Below, piece by piece: positions 1,589 through 38,289 of a DNA stretch of 45,743 nucleotides. Origin of the DNA: Candidatus Omnitrophota bacterium (GTDB lineage: Bacteria; Omnitrophota; Gorgyraeia; Gygaellales; Profunditerraquicolaceae). The notes beneath the pieces were generated by a model, which worked only from the letters and a program-made list of their open reading frames with translations, searched no databases and was not told the DNA's origin. The position numbers were made by a program, and so were the translations under genes. Numbering within the stretch: the stretch's first letter is position 1; each line of letters starts with the position of its first letter. The stretch is taken from the NCBI GenBank assembly GCA_016783715.1, contig JADHWA010000004.1, positions 1 to 45,743 of the forward strand. Reading direction: 5' to 3'.

Positions 1589-2556
1589 AGGGGGAGGTTA
1601 TATTTATAGTCGGTCCGACTGCAACTGGCAAGAGCGAGGTTGCAGTTGAGTTGGCGAAACTGATTAATGCTGAGGTAATTTCTTGTGATTCAATGCAGAT
1701 TTATAAGGGGATGGATATAATAGCATCTTATCCGCCGGCTAAACTGCGGAGAAAGATTCCGCATCACCTGGTTAGTGTAGTTTCGCCTCAAAGAGAATTT
1801 AATGTTAATCAGTACCGCAGGAGGGCGCTCGGTCTCCTGCGCCGGATAATAAAGAATGGGAAGCCGGTAATATTTGTCGGCGGGACAGGGCTGTATATGT
1901 CAGTAATGATTGATGGAATCTTTAAAGGAGGGAAAGAGGATAAGCGGCTGCGCAGCAGGCTTTATCGGCTGGCTGAAAAAAAAGGCGTATCGTATATTTA
2001 CAAAAAGCTGGTGAAAGTTGATCCGGATGCTGCCAAAAGGATACATCCGCACGACAGAAAGAGGATTGTACGGGCCCTTGAGGTCTATCAGGGTACAGGT
2101 AAGCCAATTTCTGTATTGCAAAGACAGAGGCGGGGGCTTGCCGATGATTATGATATTAAGAGTTTCTATCTTGATCTAAACCGCCAAGAGCTCTATCGTA
2201 GAATAGATAGCCGTCTGCAAGGTATGTTTGAGGACGGGTTGATTAAAGAGGTTAAGAGGCTTCTGGAGACTAGATTGAGCAGAACTGCCAGCTGTGCCAT
2301 CGGTATAAAGGAGCTCAGCGAATATTTAGGCGACAGGATGGGTTTGACGGATAGTAAAGCCTTAATCAGCCGCAATACGCGCAACTACGCCAAAAGGCAG
2401 ATCAGCTGGTTCCGCAGGGACAAACGGATACAATGGATAAAAGTCAAAAAAATTGACTCACCAAAGGAGATAGCGATAAGAATATGTCAAATGATTCCCG
2501 GGCTTACGGAGCGAAAGCGAACGAAAGCCCGCAGGAAGAATTTGACCCAGCACTAA
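1585..2556 (+). CDS. miaA: tRNA dimethylallyltransferase
   Basis: N-term IFIVGPTATGKSEVAVELAKLINAEVISCDSMQIYKGMDI typical of MiaA; ATGA overlap with upstream CDS. Confidence 0.95.
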   Translation: MKGEVIFIVGPTATGKSEVAVELAKLINAEVISCDSMQIYKGMDIIASYPPAKLRRKIPHHLVSVVSPQREFNVNQYRRRALGLLRRIIKNGKPVIFVGGTGLYMSVMIDGIFKGGKEDKRLRSRLYRLAEKKGVSYIYKKLVKVDPDAAKRIHPHDRKRIVRALEVYQGTGKPISVLQRQRRGLADDYDIKSFYLDLNRQELYRRIDSRLQGMFEDGLIKEVKRLLETRLSRTASCAIGIKELSEYLGDRMGLTDSKALISRNTRNYAKRQISWFRRDKRIQWIKVKKIDSPKEIAIRICQMIPGLTERKRTKARRKNLTQH

Positions 2557-2674
2557 TTTTTTTAAAATTAGTGCTGGATTTAATTCGCGTACGCTTATAA
2601 ACTACTAAACAAGGGACGCTATATTTTACGGAAGCACATTTAAGAGCTTATCGTAAAATATACGCTTATTAAAT
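2541..2674 (+). repeat. Structured element R1, copy A (miaA-hflX)
   Basis: Hairpin CCAGCACTAATTTT/AAAATTAGTGCTGG (2547-2577); P1 ATTTAAT/ATTAAAT and GCGTA/TACGC; P2 TATTTTACG/CGTAAAATA; conserved CGCTTA...ACAAGGGACGCTA. Confidence 0.8.
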
Positions 2675-3964
2675 ATGGAAAGAACTTTATTAGTTACGAT
2701 TAAGTTTCATTCAGAGAAGTCGCCATGGAAGCTGGAAGATAGCGGGGAAGAATTAGAGGAGCTGGTCAGTGCCTGCGGTGCCGAGATCATAGATAATATC
2801 TCCTGTGTCAGGGAGAGGCCGACAGCGAATTTTTTTATTGGCAAGGGTAAGGTCGAAGAGATTGCCATGCTCTGTGCGCAGGAGGAGATTGATACTGTTG
2901 TTTTTTCGCATGATCTCTCCGGGACGCAGCAGCGCAACTTAGAAGATATTATCGGCAAAAAGACTATTGACCGCACACAGCTGATCTTGGATATATTCTC
3001 TCGCCATGCCAGGAGCCCTGAGGGCAAAATGCAGGTTGAGCTGGCGCAGTTGCAGTATCTGTTGCCGAGATTAATCGGTGCGGGGGTTATCCTTTCGCGT
3101 ACTGGAGGCGGAATCGGCACAAGCGGACCCGGAGAGCAGAAGCTTGAAGTCGACCGCCGTAGAATCCGCAAACGCCTCGACAAGCTAAAGAATGACATCA
3201 GGCACTTATCTTTACACCGCAAGACCACCAGAAAGCGCAGGAAAGATAATTCCATGCCGGTTGTAGCATTAGTCGGCTATACCAATGCCGGTAAATCTAC
3301 CTTGATCAATACCTTAACCGGCGCTCTGCAAGTTGTTTCTAATAGCCTCTTTACGACATTGGATCCGCTGTATAAGAGCCTGCAGTTACCTAACGGAGAA
3401 AATATAGTGATCTCTGACACAGTCGGTTTCCTGCATAATCTTCCGCATCATCTGATAGAGGCTTTTAAAGCAACCCTTGAGGAAGTAATCGAGGCAGATC
3501 TGATTATTCATGTTTTAGATGTCAGCCATCCACGCGTCTATCAGCATAATCAGGCAGTAATGGATGTGCTAAAGGAGATGGAGATTAAAGATAAGCCGCT
3601 GATTATAGCGTTGAATAAGATAGATCTTGTGGATGATCTGAGCTGGCTGGAGCATACAAAGAATGATTTTTCCAGCTCGGTGTTAATCTCGGCTAAGTTC
3701 AGGAAGAATCTTGATCTTTTATTGAATCTGATACAGAATAATTTCTCGGGACGTATGGTTTCATGCGATTTGCTTCTTCCTCATTCGCGGATGGGGATGA
3801 TCGATCTATTTTATCGCGAGGGCCGAGTGGAAAAAATCGATTATCTCCAGGAGGGGATAAGGGTGGAGGTAAGCCTCCCCAGGCCGCTCTATGATAAAGT
3901 AGTAGGTAGTAGTGATATAAAGGAGTTAAAGAAGGGGAATCGTACAACGAAGCCGTTGCCTTAA
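2675..3964 (+). CDS. hflX: GTPase HflX
   Basis: HflX N-domain and GTPase motifs (VALVGYTNAGKSTLINTL, DTVGFLHNLPHHLIEAFKATLEE, NKIDL); adjacent to miaA. Confidence 0.93.
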   Translation: MERTLLVTIKFHSEKSPWKLEDSGEELEELVSACGAEIIDNISCVRERPTANFFIGKGKVEEIAMLCAQEEIDTVVFSHDLSGTQQRNLEDIIGKKTIDRTQLILDIFSRHARSPEGKMQVELAQLQYLLPRLIGAGVILSRTGGGIGTSGPGEQKLEVDRRRIRKRLDKLKNDIRHLSLHRKTTRKRRKDNSMPVVALVGYTNAGKSTLINTLTGALQVVSNSLFTTLDPLYKSLQLPNGENIVISDTVGFLHNLPHHLIEAFKATLEEVIEADLIIHVLDVSHPRVYQHNQAVMDVLKEMEIKDKPLIIALNKIDLVDDLSWLEHTKNDFSSSVLISAKFRKNLDLLLNLIQNNFSGRMVSCDLLLPHSRMGMIDLFYREGRVEKIDYLQEGIRVEVSLPRPLYDKVVGSSDIKELKKGNRTTKPLP

Positions 3965-7193: not shown

Positions 7194-7388
7194 AGGCATC
7201 CAAAGGGAATAAAAATAGAGGATGCCTGATTTCAAAGATTATCCCGCACCACACTAAAAATACATATAGCGGGATCCCGTAAGGCGGGAAAAGACTAGAT
7301 TACAGAAATCAATGTTTTAATCGCTGTAATCTAAAATTAATCACAGTAATCAGGTATAATTTTTTAGATTATGCCTAATGATTATACC
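7194..7388. repeat. Composite palindromic intergenic element R2, copy 1
   Basis: AGGCATCC...GGATGCCT; core TCCCGCACC...GCGGGATCCCGTAAGGCGGGAAAAG; GATTACAG...CTGTAATC; GGTATAAT...ATTATACC hairpins. Same order as 8136-8320. Confidence 0.8.
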
Positions 7389-8137: not shown

Positions 8138-8320
8138 ACATCCCATAATGACAAAAAGGAGGATGTCTGATTACAGAGATTATCCCGCACGAAAATTAGA
8201 ATATATAGTGGGGGTCCTTAACTAGAAAAATAGATTACAGAGATTAATGGTTTAATCGCTGTAATCGTAATTAATCACAGTAATCAGGTATAATCCATAG
8301 AGTAGACGGAGGATTATACC
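8136..8320. repeat. Composite palindromic intergenic element R2, copy 2
   Basis: AGACATCC...GGATGTCT, TGATTACAGAGATTATCCCGC, GATTACAGAGATTAATGGTTTAATCGCTGTAATC, GGTATAATCC...GGATTATACC (10-bp perfect). Confidence 0.8.
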
Positions 8321-12741: not shown

Positions 12742-14012
12742 AACTAATAATGCCTTTTCGGGCAGTTGTTTTTAATCAGGAAAAGATAGGTGATCTCTCT
12801 AAAGTGGTCTGCCCGCCGTACGATGTAATCACGCCTTCGAAGCGAAAACACTATCACAAAATCAATCCCCATAACTTCATCCGTATACTTTTAGGCAATG
12901 ATGTTGCCGGAGAGGATAAGTATAAGCGTTCAGCCCAGCACTTTAAAGAGTGGCTGCAGAGCGGAGTATTTGTCCAGGATCAGAAGCCTTGCATTTATTT
13001 TTACCTGCAGCAGTTTAGTATCCGTGGCGAGAAGAGGAGCCGGATGGGGTTTATTGCGCTTCTGCGGCTGGATGATGGTAAGGCGCGCGTTTTCGGCCAT
13101 GAGCATACGCGCAGCGAACCAAAAGTAGACCGGCTGAGGTTATTGAGGAAGGTAAAGGCAAACCTTAGCCCGATCTTTGCGATATTCCCGGATAAACACC
13201 GGATTATCCGCAGAGTCTACGAACTCTATATCAGGGGTAAAGAGCCCTTTATAGATATCGCTGACTCAGATAACATCCTACATCAGCTCTGGAGGATAGA
13301 TTCCCCTGAGGTCACAGAGCAGATCCAGAAGAGGATGGATGGCGAGAATATCTTTATCGCAGACGGTCACCACCGTTATGAGGTCGCCTGTATCTACCGC
13401 GAGCAGATGAGAAAAAAGATGCATAATTTCACCGGGCGTGAGGCCTTTAATTTTATTCCAACATATTTTACTAATCCCCAGACTCCGGACCTTACGATCA
13501 TGCCGGTGCATCGGCTGATTTATACAAAAAGAGGCTTTGATTTTGGCAGGTTCCGGCGGGAACTCGGAAGTTTCTTTGAGGTTGAAGAGGTTAAGGACAA
13601 AATTAAGTTTTTCTTTATGCTGGAGAAAGCCGGCAACACAGAGAATGTATTGGGGATGTACGCTGATGGCAGGTTTTCTCTTTTAAGGTTGAAAAATGTT
13701 TTGATTTTAGATAGACTTATTGCTGATAAACCAAAGGCTTACCGCTTTTTAAGCGTAAGTATCTTTAATTATCTGGTGCTTAAAAAGATTTTGGGTATGG
13801 ATATCGAGGATAAAAAGAGGATTTTGTTCAGCCCTAATGCCTCAGAGTTAATCGAACAGGCCCGGGGGCGCCCGGATGCAATGGTATTTATGTTAAATCC
13901 GGTTAAGATGGAGCAGATCATGTCTGTCGCAGTCGAAGGGGAGAGGATGCCTTCGAAGTCGACCTATTTTTACCCGAAAGTACTTTCCGGACTGGTGATA
14001 AATAAGCTTTAA
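12738..14012 (+). CDS. DUF1015 family protein
   Basis: MPFRAVVFNQEKIGDLSKVVCPPYDVI, FGHEHTRSEPKVDRLRLLR, IADGHHRYEVA motifs. Confidence 0.88.
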   Translation: MKLIMPFRAVVFNQEKIGDLSKVVCPPYDVITPSKRKHYHKINPHNFIRILLGNDVAGEDKYKRSAQHFKEWLQSGVFVQDQKPCIYFYLQQFSIRGEKRSRMGFIALLRLDDGKARVFGHEHTRSEPKVDRLRLLRKVKANLSPIFAIFPDKHRIIRRVYELYIRGKEPFIDIADSDNILHQLWRIDSPEVTEQIQKRMDGENIFIADGHHRYEVACIYREQMRKKMHNFTGREAFNFIPTYFTNPQTPDLTIMPVHRLIYTKRGFDFGRFRRELGSFFEVEEVKDKIKFFFMLEKAGNTENVLGMYADGRFSLLRLKNVLILDRLIADKPKAYRFLSVSIFNYLVLKKILGMDIEDKKRILFSPNASELIEQARGRPDAMVFMLNPVKMEQIMSVAVEGERMPSKSTYFYPKVLSGLVINKL

Positions 14013-14013
14013 C

Positions 14014-14148
14014 GATGTCACCCCCACACCAATTCTGGTATAGACTTGATATTTTCGAATTGGTGTGGGGGTAAATTCGCGCACGCTTACAGATAAGGAT
14101 ACAAGGGACGCTATAACTTAGCAAAGCTAAGTTATGCGCTCATTTAAT
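14014..14148 (+). repeat. Structured element R1, copy B (DUF1015-accD)
   Basis: Hairpin ACCCCCACACCAATTC/GAATTGGTGTGGGGGT (14020-14072); P1 TAAAT/ATTTA and GCGCA/TGCGC; P2 TAACTTAGC/GCTAAGTTA; CGCTTACAGATAAGGATACAAGGGACGCTA. Confidence 0.8.
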
Positions 14149-14991
14149 ATGGCACTCTTCGGTAAACCTAAATATACAATCGTCAGGCTTAAAAAGAAAG
14201 AGATTCCCGACGGCCTCTGGACAAAATGCGATGAGTGTTCCGAGGTCCTCTTTAACAAGAAGCTCGATGAGACTCTGAAAGTCTGTCCGAAGTGCAACTA
14301 TCATTTTGTGCTGGGGGCAGGCAAGAGGATTGAATTGCTTGTTGATAAGGATACATTTTCCGAATATGACCAGGAGTTAACCTCTGTGGATCCTCTTGAT
14401 TTTAAGGGGCCAAAGACATATAAAGAGAAGATTAAGCAGGATCAGGCTGTAACCGGCTTAAAGGCAGCTGCGATTACAGGAGAGGGTGACATTTTTGGGC
14501 AAAGAATAGTGATTGGCGCTACTGACTCCCGTTTTATTATGGGATCTATGGGGTCGGTGGTCGGAGAGAAGCTTACCCGTGCAATCGAGTCGGCAACCAG
14601 AAACAATCTTCCTTTGATCATAGTCTCAGGTTCCGGCGGAGGTGCTAGGATGTATGAAGGGATGTTTAGTTTGATGCAGATGGCTAAAACTTCAGCGGCA
14701 CTGGCCCGTCATCACCAGAAAAAATTACTTTATATATCAGTTTTGACTAACCCTACTATGGCAGGGATAATGGCTTCTTTCGCCGGCCTGGGGGATATAA
14801 CCGTCGCCGAACCAAAGGCATTAATTGGTTTTACCGGACCGCGCGTAATCGAGCAGACAATCAGGCAAAAGTTACCTCCGGGGTTTCAGCGGTCTGAGTT
14901 TCTCCTGGAGCACGGTATGGTTGATCTGATAGTTCAGCGCAAGGAGCTCAAAGAGTCATTAGCCAGAATAGTCGACTATTTGAGCAAATGA
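14149..14991 (+). CDS. accD: Acetyl-CoA carboxylase carboxyltransferase subunit beta
   Basis: Zinc ribbon (CDECSEVLFNKKLDETLKVCPKC) and carboxyltransferase domain. Start set at ATG 14149 (MALFGKPKYT); the 14134 start lies in the R1 hairpin. Confidence 0.95.
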   Translation: MALFGKPKYTIVRLKKKEIPDGLWTKCDECSEVLFNKKLDETLKVCPKCNYHFVLGAGKRIELLVDKDTFSEYDQELTSVDPLDFKGPKTYKEKIKQDQAVTGLKAAAITGEGDIFGQRIVIGATDSRFIMGSMGSVVGEKLTRAIESATRNNLPLIIVSGSGGGARMYEGMFSLMQMAKTSAALARHHQKKLLYISVLTNPTMAGIMASFAGLGDITVAEPKALIGFTGPRVIEQTIRQKLPPGFQRSEFLLEHGMVDLIVQRKELKESLARIVDYLSK

Positions 14992-16201: not shown

Positions 16202-17516
16202 AAGCCATTTCAAAGGCGGCCTGCTGTTTAGATATACTAATCCAGCCTCTTCGCTTGCGCCTGTTACCTGCATAGTCTCGATAGTAGCCCTGCCGATAAT
16301 CTTTAGACTCTTTAACTCCCCTCTCTCTGGAAAACTGCTTTTTCTTTACTACCTGTTAAATACGCTGTTGGTAATTTTTTTGTTTAAGTCCTATTCCAAT
16401 AACAAGTACCGCCTGGAACTGCAGAAACAAAAATTCCAGGAGGAGTGGAATATTATCAGCGAGCAGGGGACAAAAGATTTAAAGAACCAGCGCGTCTTTA
16501 ATGAAAGAATCGACCGATTTGCCTTGCTTAAGGATATTATCGAGGATGTAGCCGGAGACCTAAGATTAGAATCAGTGGTTAAGACGATCCTGGACACTGC
16601 CTTTACATCTATAGGAAAAAAAAGGGGGAATTGCCTCTTATATCTGATCGACAGCCAGACCCAGCGATTGGTAGTTTTTGGCAGCAGGAAGCAGGATAAG
16701 AACCTGATCATAAAGACTAAGGAGGGGGATGTCTTTGATTCCTGGGTACAGAGACACACCAGTCCCTTGTTAATTGAAGATAGCAGGCGTGATTTCCGTT
16801 TTGATCCCGAAAGGATCGCCGGCAGGAAATCAAGGGTTATCTCTTCATTGATTAGCGCGCCCTTTAAAACCGAACACAGGTTGCTGGGGATCTTGAGACT
16901 GGAGAGCCCAGAGACCGGCGCCTACTCACAGGAGGACCTGCGTTTCCTGATGACAGTCTGTGATTTGGGAGCCATAGCATTGGAGAACGCCCGATTATTT
17001 GAGAAGACGCAGGAGCTGGCGATTCACGACGGATTGACCGGCCTCTTTACCAAGGCGCATTTCTTAGAGCATTTTGAGGTAGAGTACAATAGGGCGTTTA
17101 GGGAGAAAGGGGAGTTGTCGCTTTTGATGATGGATATCGATTTCTTCAAGATATATAACGATAAATACGGCCACCGCGTAGGCGATATAGTCCTGAAGAA
17201 GATAGGGAAACTTGCAACCGAATTCTTTAAGTCCTGTGATGCCACAGTAGGAAGATTTGGCGGTGAGGAATTCTGCATTGCATTGGCCAACATCACACAG
17301 GATAAAGCGCATAGTTTAGCAGTTGATTTTTGCAAAAAGGTCAAAGAGAATAAAGTTGTATTACGTAGGGAAGACACCGGGGTGACGGTTTCGATCGGGT
17401 TGGCAAGTTTAACGAAAAAAGTTTCGGATGCCCAGGAGTTAGTCTTTGCTGCCGACCAGGCATTGCTGGCGGCAAAAAGAAGTGGTAAGAACCGGGTGGT
17501 AAGGCACCTTAATTAG
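16170..17516 (+). CDS. Membrane GAF-GGDEF diguanylate cyclase
   Basis: N-term TM segments, GAF-like region, GGDEF domain with RFGGEEF and DGLTGL. Confidence 0.87.
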   Translation: MIRILKKPLFKSHFKGGLLFRYTNPASSLAPVTCIVSIVALPIIFRLFNSPLSGKLLFLYYLLNTLLVIFLFKSYSNNKYRLELQKQKFQEEWNIISEQGTKDLKNQRVFNERIDRFALLKDIIEDVAGDLRLESVVKTILDTAFTSIGKKRGNCLLYLIDSQTQRLVVFGSRKQDKNLIIKTKEGDVFDSWVQRHTSPLLIEDSRRDFRFDPERIAGRKSRVISSLISAPFKTEHRLLGILRLESPETGAYSQEDLRFLMTVCDLGAIALENARLFEKTQELAIHDGLTGLFTKAHFLEHFEVEYNRAFREKGELSLLMMDIDFFKIYNDKYGHRVGDIVLKKIGKLATEFFKSCDATVGRFGGEEFCIALANITQDKAHSLAVDFCKKVKENKVVLRREDTGVTVSIGLASLTKKVSDAQELVFAADQALLAAKRSGKNRVVRHLN

Positions 17517-17520
17517 GCCT

Positions 17521-18516
17521 ATGAACCTGACGCATGTATTTATTTTATTATTGTCCAGCGCGCTGATTAATTGCTGTCTGTATAAGATTTTAAGCGGTCG
17601 GCTCTCTATTGCTAAAGGTGATCTGGGCAATTTCCAGGGGCGCTGCGGCGATCTGCAGGCCAGGAATCAGGAGCTCAGAGATAGGAATTCATATCTGGAG
17701 AAAGAGGCAAATCAGACTATGCAAATATTCGATATCACAAAAGACATCTGTAAGTTTTTGGATCAGGATGCGCTGTTTAATTATTTTAAGAATCAGGTAG
17801 GAAATTATTTAACCGCAGTCGATCTTGGTTTCATTGAAGGCGAGAATCTCCCGGATGATTATAAGAGCTTTGTGCGAGTGCCTTTAGAGATTGACAATAG
17901 AGTAATCGGGTATCTAGTGGCTCGCCAGATTGCCCAGGATGACTGGGATAAATTTTTTATCCTTTCCCGGGAGTTCATTATGGGGCTTAAGCGGATACTT
18001 CTATATAAGGCGGTCCAGGCCCTGGCGATCACCGATTCGCTGACCGGGATTTCAGGAAGGCACCATTTCTTAGAGCGGGCAGAAGAGGAGGTCCAGCGCA
18101 GCAATAAATTTAAATCTGTTTTCTCCCTGTTGATCGTGGATGTGGATGATTTTAAAAGCTATAATGATAAATACGGGCACCTTGTAGGAGACGCTATTTT
18201 AAAACAGATATCGCAGATGGTGAAGGTTAACCTGCGCCAGATCGACCTGGTATGCAGATATGGCGGGGACGAATTTCTGGCAGTCTTGAGTGAGACAGCA
18301 TCTAGCGGGGCAGAGACCGTTGCAGAGCGTATCCGTAAAACCATAGAGAGCACTAAGATCAAAGCCTACGATGAATTCCTGGACGTAACCGTAAGCATCG
18401 GGGTCTCGGTTTTCCCGAAAGATTCCCGTCTCTTAAGCCGGCTGATTGAGCGGGCGGACCAGGCTCTATATCAGGCCAAGACAGCCGGGAGAAATAAAGT
18501 CAAGATTTACTGCTAA
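17521..18516 (+). CDS. GGDEF diguanylate cyclase with N-terminal TM/coiled coil
   Basis: TDSLTGISGRHHFLERAEEE...RQIDLVCRYGGDEFLAVL. Confidence 0.88.
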   Translation: MNLTHVFILLLSSALINCCLYKILSGRLSIAKGDLGNFQGRCGDLQARNQELRDRNSYLEKEANQTMQIFDITKDICKFLDQDALFNYFKNQVGNYLTAVDLGFIEGENLPDDYKSFVRVPLEIDNRVIGYLVARQIAQDDWDKFFILSREFIMGLKRILLYKAVQALAITDSLTGISGRHHFLERAEEEVQRSNKFKSVFSLLIVDVDDFKSYNDKYGHLVGDAILKQISQMVKVNLRQIDLVCRYGGDEFLAVLSETASSGAETVAERIRKTIESTKIKAYDEFLDVTVSIGVSVFPKDSRLLSRLIERADQALYQAKTAGRNKVKIYC

Positions 18517-22405: not shown

Positions 22406-22558
22406 ACATCTTATAATGGGAAACAATAAGATGTCTTGATTACAAAGATTTTCCCGCACCAAACTAAAAAAACATATACCGGGATTCCACTGGGGCGGGA
22501 AAAGAACAAATTACAGTGATTCAGGTATAATCTATGACTATACCTCTAGGATTATACC
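22404..22558. repeat. Composite palindromic intergenic element R2, copy 3
   Basis: AGACATCTTAT/ATAAGATGTCT, TTGATTACAAAGATTTTCCCGCACCAAACTAAAAAAACATATACCGGGATTCC...GGCGGGAAAAG, GGTATAATC/GATTATACC. Confidence 0.8.
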
Positions 22559-35972: not shown

Positions 35973-36366
35973 AATTAAACCAATTCATGTCAGCGGATTC
36001 AGAGGGCAAATTTTGTTAGGAATATTTCTTTTTAGTTATATACTATTTGTGATAGCTGGAACTGTCTATGCAGAGAATGAAAGTCAGTTTAAGTATGATG
36101 CTGCAGGTAAACGAAATCCTTTTATACCTTTGATCACCCCTGACGGAAGGCTGCTTAATCTAGATACAGTAGTTACCGAGACCGGCCTGGTTTTAGAGGG
36201 GGTCATATTTGATCAACAGGGTGAGTCTTTCGCACTGATTAACGGGAAAGTTTTTAAGGTGGGCGATAGCGTAGATGATTATACGGTTTTAGATATCGAT
36301 AAAGGCAGAGTAAATTTATTAAAGGCTGGTCAGCTTTACGTCTTAGAGACCAAGAAGGGTGAATGA
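35959..36366 (+). CDS. PilP-like protein
   Basis: KRNPFIPLITPDG...LEGVIFDQQGESFALINGKVFKVGDSVDDYTVLDI; between pilO and secretin. Confidence 0.7.
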   Translation: MPVDKIKPIHVSGFRGQILLGIFLFSYILFVIAGTVYAENESQFKYDAAGKRNPFIPLITPDGRLLNLDTVVTETGLVLEGVIFDQQGESFALINGKVFKVGDSVDDYTVLDIDKGRVNLLKAGQLYVLETKKGE

Positions 36367-36546
36367 CCCCGCACCCAGCTTTGTATCGGTAAGCTATACG
36401 AAGGCTGGGTGCGGGGGAATTTGTCCCCCCTGTATTATTGTACAATACAAAGGGGGGATTAATTCGCAGACGCTGGAAATTAAATTAGTAATGCGGCTAT
36501 CCTTGACATCGTAGATGTCAAGGATCTGCTCATTAAAGGAGGGGAA
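36361..36546 (+). repeat. Structured element R1, copy C (pilP-pilQ), with extra upstream hairpin
   Basis: CCCCGCACCCAGC/GCTGGGTGCGGGG (36367-36416); CCCCCCTGTATT/AATACAAAGGGGGG; P1 TTAAT/ATTAA and GCAGA/TCTGC; P2 TCCTTGACATC/GATGTCAAGGA; CGCTGG...ATGCGGCTA. Confidence 0.75.
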
Positions 36547-38289
36547 GTGAAGCAGATTAGAATCCCAACACTTTTGAGAATATTTTTTATTTCGCTCTTG
36601 ATTTATTTTTTCTCAACCTCGGGCGCAGCCTACCTTGACGATGCCTCGGCTCTCTCGGAGGAGCCGCAAACTACTGATCAACAAACAGCTAAGGGAGAAC
36701 CGGTACGCACCAATCTATTGCCGGATCAGCTGGTTAGTGATACTCCGGTTGATGACCAGCAGGTAGATGAGCTACCGGATCTGGATATATCAGTTAGTCA
36801 GCAATCAGTGCCGGAAGTAGAAGTTCAAGTCGCCTCAATCAAAAAAAGCGATGCTTCTACGGATCCCGGGAATGTGACTCTGGATTTTAAGGATGCCGAT
36901 ATCCGTAACGTCTTGAGGTTGATATCTTACAAGGCACGGGTGAACATCGTGGCAACCCCGGAGGTACTTGGAAATGTTACCATCAGGCTATTTGATGTCC
37001 CCTGGGAGAAGGCCTTAAATACCATAGTCACCGCATACGGTTATGGATATGAGTGGCTTAATAATAAGGTGATCATGGTATCTACTTTAGAGAAATTAGC
37101 TGAGCAGCGCCTGGCCCAGGACGCAGCAGCCGCCAACGAACCTCTGGATACCCAGACTTTCAGATTGAATTACTCAAGGAGCGAAGATATTATGAAGTCG
37201 ATCGAGACTTTGGTCTCCCCGCGCGGAAAAATTACCCTTGAATCCCGCACTAATACTCTGATCGTTAGAGAAACAAAGACCAATCTTATAAGGATCGGCG
37301 AAATCATAAAGTCCCTGGATAAGATGACTCCTCAGGTGATGATCGAGGCCAAGATCATAGAGACTACGCTCGGAGATACAGAGAACTTAGGCATAGACTG
37401 GACTATAGAGGTAGCCTTGAGTGGTTCTGCGCGGCCAACCTCATTTCCTTTTCAGACTGATGCTTATAAGGGTACCGGGAATAAGATGTTTCCATACATG
37501 GAGTCGCCGGATCATATGGAGACGACCACAACTACCACTCAGAGCGAAACAGGAGTTGTCTTAAGCACAACTACAACTCAGGAAGTTTTCAACACTCTGG
37601 TTCGAGGTTTTCCTGCAGTGGCAGCCAACGCCTTCACCTACGGCACTCTGGATTTTTCACAGTTTCAGACGGTCTTAGAGATCTTAAAGAAAAGAACCGA
37701 TACCAAGGTGCTTTCAAATCCGCGGATTACAACCCTTAATAATCAGCAAGCTGAGATCCTGGTTGGCTCTATCGTCCCGATACCGAATTATGAATATAGT
37801 AAAGATACCGGGACCAGGGTAGTCTCCGGCTATACGGATCAGAAGATCGGGATTGGCCTGACGGTAACCCCTAACATTAACGAAGAGGATTATGTTACCT
37901 TGATTGTTGAGCCGACTATCGATCAGATTACCGGATTCACCGGGCCGAATAATGAGAGACCGATAATATCCACCCGTAACGCCCAGACCAATGTGATGAT
38001 TAAAGACGGCGAGACCCTGGTAATCGGAGGGTTGATCGCCGAGAAAAAGATAGAGTTCGAGAAGAAAGTTCCCATTTTGGGTGATATACCGATAATCAAA
38101 TATTTATTTAGCAAGAAAGAGCATAGTATCGACAGGACAGAACTCTTGATATTTATAACCCCTTATATCATCAGAGACTCTACGATCGGCTCGCCTACTG
38201 CAATTGCTCGACTCCAGCAGCAGTTTAGTGATGCCATCCTCCAGCAGTCAGGAATCATAGATGATAGGAAGAGAGAAAAAAAAGAATAG
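36547..38289 (+). CDS. pilQ: Type IV pilus secretin PilQ
   Basis: STN-like VTLDFKDADIRNVLRLISYKARVNIVATPEV, secretin domain VLSNPRITTLNNQQAEILVGSIVPI, VIGGLIAEKKIEFEKKVPILGDIPIIKYLF; GTG start with AGGAGG. Confidence 0.93.
   Translation: MKQIRIPTLLRIFFISLLIYFFSTSGAAYLDDASALSEEPQTTDQQTAKGEPVRTNLLPDQLVSDTPVDDQQVDELPDLDISVSQQSVPEVEVQVASIKKSDASTDPGNVTLDFKDADIRNVLRLISYKARVNIVATPEVLGNVTIRLFDVPWEKALNTIVTAYGYGYEWLNNKVIMVSTLEKLAEQRLAQDAAAANEPLDTQTFRLNYSRSEDIMKSIETLVSPRGKITLESRTNTLIVRETKTNLIRIGEIIKSLDKMTPQVMIEAKIIETTLGDTENLGIDWTIEVALSGSARPTSFPFQTDAYKGTGNKMFPYMESPDHMETTTTTTQSETGVVLSTTTTQEVFNTLVRGFPAVAANAFTYGTLDFSQFQTVLEILKKRTDTKVLSNPRITTLNNQQAEILVGSIVPIPNYEYSKDTGTRVVSGYTDQKIGIGLTVTPNINEEDYVTLIVEPTIDQITGFTGPNNERPIISTRNAQTNVMIKDGETLVIGGLIAEKKIEFEKKVPILGDIPIIKYLFSKKEHSIDRTELLIFITPYIIRDSTIGSPTAIARLQQQFSDAILQQSGIIDDRKREKKE

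Follow-up and report, generated by a model that had tools for sequence, protein, structure and literature searches.

The structured DNA directly upstream of accD (copy B) most probably goes back to an inserted mobile DNA element, small and non-autonomous: a palindromic composite akin to miniature inverted-repeat elements (MITEs) and REP sequences. It is a dispersed insertion and not a conserved-loop regulatory RNA, and our verdict is that it belongs to a new, phylum-wide family, modular and palindromic, whose members are tied to translation starts. There is good support for mobility by insertion; active Shine-Dalgarno targeting, not separated here from selection against insertions elsewhere, is plausible. 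The window, i.e., the whole stretch of 45,743 nucleotides, is contig C40 of a 717-kb, 45-contig, 65%-complete Omnitrophota draft genome, all of which was analyzed.

Anatomy of the element in front of accD and its counterparts in the window

Members of the family lie between genes, carry no transposase gene, and occupy the gap from a stop codon to the next start. A full composite has a set order and orientation, namely stop codon, H0 (AATGA...GAATT, inverted), H1, H2 (AATTC...TCATT), start codon, with H0 and H2 being inverted units around the H1 hairpin; units measure about 50 to 130 nt, and composites measure about 130 to 330 nt. Any terminal inverted repeats would be very short (AATGA/TCATT plus one covarying base), much of the symmetry lying between H0 and H2. 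In front of accD, the following features were delineated:

14020..14072, + strand: hairpin H1 of copy B (ACCCCCACACCAATTC / GAATTGGTGTGGGGGT), read from sequence
14074..14144, + strand: unit H2 of copy B, AATTC ... TCATT, a three-way junction with a degenerate P1
14079..14083, + strand: 5' arm (GCGCA) of outer stem P0, partner at 14135-14139, from covariation
14084..14113, + strand: 30-nt middle segment, a degenerate P1 hairpin, C...TA
14114..14134, + strand: P2 hairpin, TAACTTAGC-AAA-GCTAAGTTA, from covariation
14135..14139, + strand: 3' arm (TGCGC) of outer stem P0, from covariation
14149..14991, + strand: accD, acetyl-CoA carboxylase carboxyltransferase subunit beta (TIGR00515, 387.8 bits; cut-off, 317.45)

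The unit is laid out as AATTC-GCGCA-(30 nt)-P2-TGCGC-TCATT (14074 to 14144), and both the GCGCA/TGCGC stem and the P2 pairing (TAACTTAGC, 14114 to 14122, with GCTAAGTTA, 14126 to 14134) are present as described in the first-pass annotation. In its own genome, this copy, which was part of the training set, scored 77.6 bits (E = 2.3e-15) with the R1 covariance model. The span from 14014 to 14148, previously taken to be one element, holds two: H1, which begins 8 nt past the stop codon (14010 to 14012) of a DUF1015 gene and takes the same C-rich hairpin position in most composites, and the unit itself. The element had also been said to end immediately before accD; TCATT is indeed found just upstream, with 4 nt (TAAT) intervening between it and the ATG of the start (ATGGCACTC) at 14149. 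No H0 is recognizable in copy B, so its edges fall outside the direct-repeat test described below.

Two more copies were found in the window:

2481..2486, + strand: left copy of a putative target-site duplication (AATATG) of copy A
2490..2542, + strand: inverted unit H0 of copy A, AATGA ... GAATT
2546..2577, + strand: hairpin H1 of copy A (CCCAGCACTAATTTT / AAAATTAGTGCTGG)
2582..2670, + strand: unit H2 of copy A, before hflX (GTPase HflX, 2675-3964)
36362..36421, + strand: inverted C-rich unit H0 of copy C (AATGACCCC...GGGGGAATT)
36425..36457, + strand: hairpin H1 of copy C, CCCCCC ... GGGGGG
36461..36534, + strand: unit H2 of copy C, outer stem GCAGA/TCTGC, P2 TCCTTGACATC/GATGTCAAGGA

The right AATATG of copy A (2672 to 2677) contains the hflX ATG. 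The miaA reading frame (1585 to 2556) runs on through H0 of this copy into H1 (window positions 2481 to 2556), so that MiaA seems to have had its C terminus replaced by the insertion at the start of hflX. In copy C, the TGA within H0 is the stop codon of the upstream open reading frame, and H2 is followed by AAAGGAGG and a pilQ-like secretin gene (36547 to 38289). A middle segment of exactly 30 nt with ACAAGGGACGCTA as its final letters, reported earlier as a recurring feature, holds for copies A and B, but copy C has 29 nt and another ending.

Pairing, modules and distribution of the family

The covariance model returned 63 matches at an E value of <0.1 in the draft (about 60 related copies), so that the element is repeated dozens of times in this genome, in line with the earlier proposal of a repeated, structure-conserving element; no locus was found that kept the middle segment without the pairing. 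In an alignment of the 29 own-genome copies with a long middle segment, for which the pairing was read off the first copies, 97% of the paired cells could pair (65.6% after shuffling) and 125 cells were changed on both sides (41.6 after shuffling), with double changes at 12 of the 14 pairs; sliding the register left 27 to 45% paired. The 108 distinct rows from other genomes were 98.7% paired and contributed 198 double changes. Pairing by chance is excluded, and the compensatory changes noted at first hold up strongly, in own-genome copies and other genomes alike. P0 alone occurs as GCGCA/TGCGC, GCAGA/TCTGC, GCGTA/TACGC, GCGGA/TCCGC and GCATA/TATGC. Outside P0 lies a TC/TC internal loop (106 of 127), which is GA/GA on the other strand, and beyond it are three AAT/ATT pairs plus one further covarying flanking pair, this outermost pair being paired in 43 of 56 cases (25 expected) and in 62 of 71 (32.5 expected).

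The conserved unpaired middle segment of the first-pass annotation did not survive comparison with relatives. In other genomes, the middle is 10 to 31 nt long and has the form C-(hairpin)-TA (e.g., CGTCCTTGACATC..GATGTCAAGGACTA, CGCCCCGATAAATCGGGGCTA or CGCTGCATATAATTAAACGAGGCAGCTA), and the common own-genome version, CGCTGATAGAnTAGTAAACAAnnGACGCTA, reads best as a P1 hairpin with an eroded stem. Since P1 is intact in many relatives, we rejected a conserved single-stranded motif, and with the middle being a hairpin, the unit becomes a three-way junction of P0, P1 and P2. P1, P2 and H1 are drawn from overlapping pools of hairpins, CCTTGACATC-like hairpins occurring in all three roles, and P1 and P2 are freely exchanged for unrelated hairpins among copies. 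At one locus of the draft (L022; G000:C36:12758-12911), a chimeric tandem was observed, in which one unit breaks off past its CCTTGACATC P2, and this hairpin doubles as the H1 of the next unit.

With the covariance model, at least 98 of 285 Omnitrophota genomes were found to hold related elements, a minimum figure because only 15 candidates per genome were scored. Scanning 85,462 named genomes for the pattern yielded 32 stretches; the 18 in records named Omnitrophota had 4 to 5 of the 5 outer-stem pairs, and the other 14 mostly had 2 to 4, as from chance or a tandem repeat. Three of the scanned loci (L117, L118 and L121, Eubacteriales MAG STE_11) hold another tandem palindrome, AATTCGCTTACGCTCATTATATCATATCC..., which matched by resemblance and seems unrelated. 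For 100 of 133 copies, the closest relative resided in the same genome (34 in label shuffles), as expected from amplification or conversion within a genome. A search for viral carriage gave no IMG/VR match to the exact pattern AATTCGCAGACG...GTCTGCTCATT, and no description of the family turned up in the literature searched, which covered few subscription journals.

Position at translation starts, short orthologous sites and direct repeats

For 59 of the 63 model matches, the next downstream gene, as called by a codon-usage caller, is on the same strand. The AATGA ends are mainly situated 4 nt or 10 to 19 nt from gene starts (usually 4 or about 14) and −5 to +2 nt from gene stops; in some cases, AATGA contributes its TGA as the stop codon. 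Judging by N-terminal sequences, we take the downstream products to be mostly core proteins (S10, L3, L22, S13, S7, L11, GroEL, PurH and AccD). A strong Shine-Dalgarno sequence precedes 28 of 58 element-borne starts, compared with 56 of the 214 remaining starts that follow a gap of ≥70 nt (P = 0.002).

The regions upstream of accD were compared, as called for at the outset: about 13 relatives of other genera have syntenic junctions with the same upstream gene and without the element, whereas one genome (G135) carries two tandem copies of its own subfamily there. Similarly, the rpsJ-rplC gap measures 212 nt here and 11 to 27 nt in about ten relatives without the element; another genome, G001, has the same kind of composite (L263), two loci (L260 and L271) hold related pieces, and others hold unrelated sequence. 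A closer comparison was possible between G215 and G283, both of genus g135, for which 12 junctions were considered over about 700 kb of G283 and one (L291) was set aside because it was not orthologous. About 9 of the 11 comparable junctions that are filled in G215 span 8 to 68 nt (one, −1) in G283, while L298 and L299 have a larger gap or extra sequence in the latter. Among the short sites, L171 looks like a remnant of a deletion, L303 has a different C-rich hairpin and L308 gave a weak match; the six others (L138, L301, L305, L306, L309 and L311) are short with a single plain ribosome-binding site. At three of these, the empty and filled states read AGGAGG versus GGGAGG...AGGAGG (L138), AGGAAG versus AGGAAG...AGGAAG (L311) and AAGGAGG versus AAGGGGGG...AAGGGGGG (L309). 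The short G283 sites could be precise deletions rather than preinsertion sites.

Direct repeats of ≥6 nt were present at both edges in 13 of the 82 composites with a recognizable H0, copy A (AATATG) among them, compared with a mean of 3.3 and a maximum of 8 in 1,000 permutations of the right edges. Because the repeat pattern was first noticed in G215, the 66 composites outside that genome provide a fairer test, and 7 of them have a direct repeat (2.1 after permutation; P = 0.002). Variant Shine-Dalgarno sequences are duplicated, too (AAGGAAG, AAGGGGGG and AAAAAGAGG). Repeats of ≥6 nt are thus kept in a minority of composites, and repeat lengths vary (5 to 11 nt).

These observations suggest a mechanism in which the element would insert into the translation initiation region, mostly into the Shine-Dalgarno sequence (AAGGAGG) and otherwise into AAnATG, with about 6 to 9 bp of the target being duplicated upon insertion. 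With the target duplicated, the downstream gene would retain a ribosome-binding site at its usual spacing, while the upstream gene could obtain a TGA stop from the left end of the element. That the machinery itself targets the initiation site, cutting and duplicating the Shine-Dalgarno sequence or AAnATG and leaving both neighbors functional, we put forward tentatively, at a little short of even confidence; the observed position may reflect target choice or selective survival. We know of no such gene-safe targeting at translation starts for any small bacterial repeat. As for the pairing, it may be kept because the mobilization machinery recognizes folded DNA, probably single stranded and with a tandem G·A loop, or else copies might be regenerated from folded templates; tandem G·A pairs are stable in folded DNA. 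On the sense strand, H0 carries GA/GA and H2 carries TC/TC, which means that the units resemble each other only at the DNA level, when one of them is read from the opposite strand. Several points speak against transposition as the process behind this pattern: the negative enzyme searches reported below, the minority of composites with direct repeats, the very short terminal inverted repeats, the possible deletions in G283 and the fact that at some loci the slot is shared across genera more often than a rough estimate predicts (8 ortholog pairs). Such slots could be hot spots or could reflect ancient inheritance with module replacement.

Competing explanations and related systems

One rival reading is that gene conversion or homologous exchange homogenizes old, vertically inherited intergenic hairpins, with no transposition taking place. 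Different modules in the same slot in different genera, genome-specific subfamilies, the chimeric tandem at C36:12758-12911 and the tandem copies before accD in G135 would all be compatible with such a process, but it explains neither the sites that are short or empty and hold one Shine-Dalgarno sequence nor the repeats that flank filled sites, and we consider it unlikely. The alternative that the helices belong to a cis-regulatory RNA, a three-way junction in the 5' leader that controls translation or mRNA stability in a shared regulon, draws on the sense orientation, on the constant spacing from the start codon, on the strong covariation and on some orthologous genes in common between genera. 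Helices kept as mRNA should show more G·U than A·C mismatches, yet the counts are about equal (20 and 15, small numbers in which the model slightly favors G·U). Moreover, presence of the element is not a conserved trait of orthologous junctions (those of accD and rplC and about nine others), the downstream genes are diverse housekeeping genes, P1 and P2 are swapped with unrelated hairpins, and inverted units are also placed after stop codons. Rfam gave no match at gathering score in the window, and a search of five element loci with E values of up to 1 returned four microRNA families only, far below their gathering scores. We therefore regard a regulatory RNA as very unlikely, and selection on structure, as advanced in the first-pass annotation, is not supported at the level of sense RNA in view of the mismatch counts, the missing orthologous conservation and the TC/TC loop on the mRNA strand.

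A different kind of mobile DNA was considered as well. PeSL cassettes of T4-type phages are mobile, promoter-carrying regulatory cassettes, and a similar cassette with its promoter in H1 would suit the position between stop and start and the TTGACA- or TATAAT-like hexamers in some H1 loops. However, sigma-70-like scores (8.18, versus 8.06 in shuffled sequence) and exact TATAAT matches (6.9% versus 5.8%) show no enrichment, and we hold this to be the most improbable of the readings weighed here. Mobilization in trans by a RAYT (Y1 tyrosine transposase), as in a REP/REPIN system, is quite unlikely, although 9 of 12 element-rich genomes contain low-copy Y1 transposases. None of the 21 Y1 loci in those nine genomes is flanked by the element; no Y1 was found in the own genome (65% complete), G258 (98%, 13 copies), G026 or G283; and the alignment consensus, with its AATTC/TCATT ends, lacks a GTAG or CGTC tag. 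To our knowledge, target-site duplications are not expected from the RAYT mechanism either, which counts against it here. Neither PF01797 nor PF01610 (ISL3-type DDE transposase) was detected in the 65%-complete own draft, and the searches for Y1 and PF01610 identified no mobilizing enzyme or autonomous relative. The stop-to-start position had also brought to mind an attC-like integron site, a candidate that was dropped given the core genes involved and termini that seem unlike the attC boxes.

Returning to insertion of a MITE/REP-like composite, the closest known systems share several of its properties. MITEs such as ERIC, RUP, Correia/NEMIS and Nezha (PMC10969869, PMC3049150) are likewise short, noncoding, highly base-paired, multicopy and intergenic, vary in presence between relatives, and have a target-site duplication in a subset of copies. 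The present family differs in its termini, which are just AATGA/TCATT, in having no autonomous partner that we could find, in its insertion precisely at the Shine-Dalgarno sequence or start codon, and in its modular three-way junction; a 2024 MITE review contains no words beginning with "shine" or "ribosom." With REP, BIME and REPIN sequences and their RAYTs (PMC3116915, PMC8266576, PMC3733652), it shares an extragenic location and imperfect palindromes that are paired in inverted orientation around a spacer. REP ends often supply stop codons (PMC3116915, PMC3733652), as the element ends sometimes do here; these likenesses speak in favor of a RAYT. In contrast to those sequences, our elements have no GTAG/CGTC tag and no RAYT adjacency, and they show edge direct repeats. 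Pneumococcal BOX elements (PMC3049150) are likewise small interspersed repeats of modular build, in which the internal modules vary; there, the modules are boxA, boxB and boxC in an unrelated organism, whereas in the present family one hairpin takes the place of another at set positions of the junction, and the relevant passages of that source do not report Shine-Dalgarno targeting for BOX.

Compact as Omnitrophota genomes are, the family seems to have entered even the ribosomal-protein cluster, in the rpsJ-rplC gap. Should insertion be directed at ribosome-binding sites and restore them by duplication, selfish DNA could spread among closely spaced genes while leaving them intact, core genes would gain a structured 5' leader, and the targeting would offer a testable lead to the enzyme. 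Even strong covariation in front of genes, moreover, can stem from mobile palindromes rather than regulatory RNAs and calls for caution.

Other repeats were seen along the way. A second, unrelated intergenic family, GATTACAGAGATTA ... AATCACAGTAATCAGGTATAAT ... TTATACCAGGAGG, is present in the window at 7212 to 7386, 8153 to 8300 and 22422 to 22516, fills stop-to-start gaps with a Shine-Dalgarno sequence at its end, and has many more copies in the draft. Words resembling GCGCAAAGCGC/GCGTATAGCG make up still other palindromic families, which are also intergenic and lie between stop and start, for example at C42:4598, C32:2734 and C16:896 of the draft, as well as at L259 in a relative. Finally, within window positions 17115 to 18191, a 71-nt stretch with 73% identity is common to two adjacent genes, the residues of which look like those of GGDEF diguanylate cyclases.
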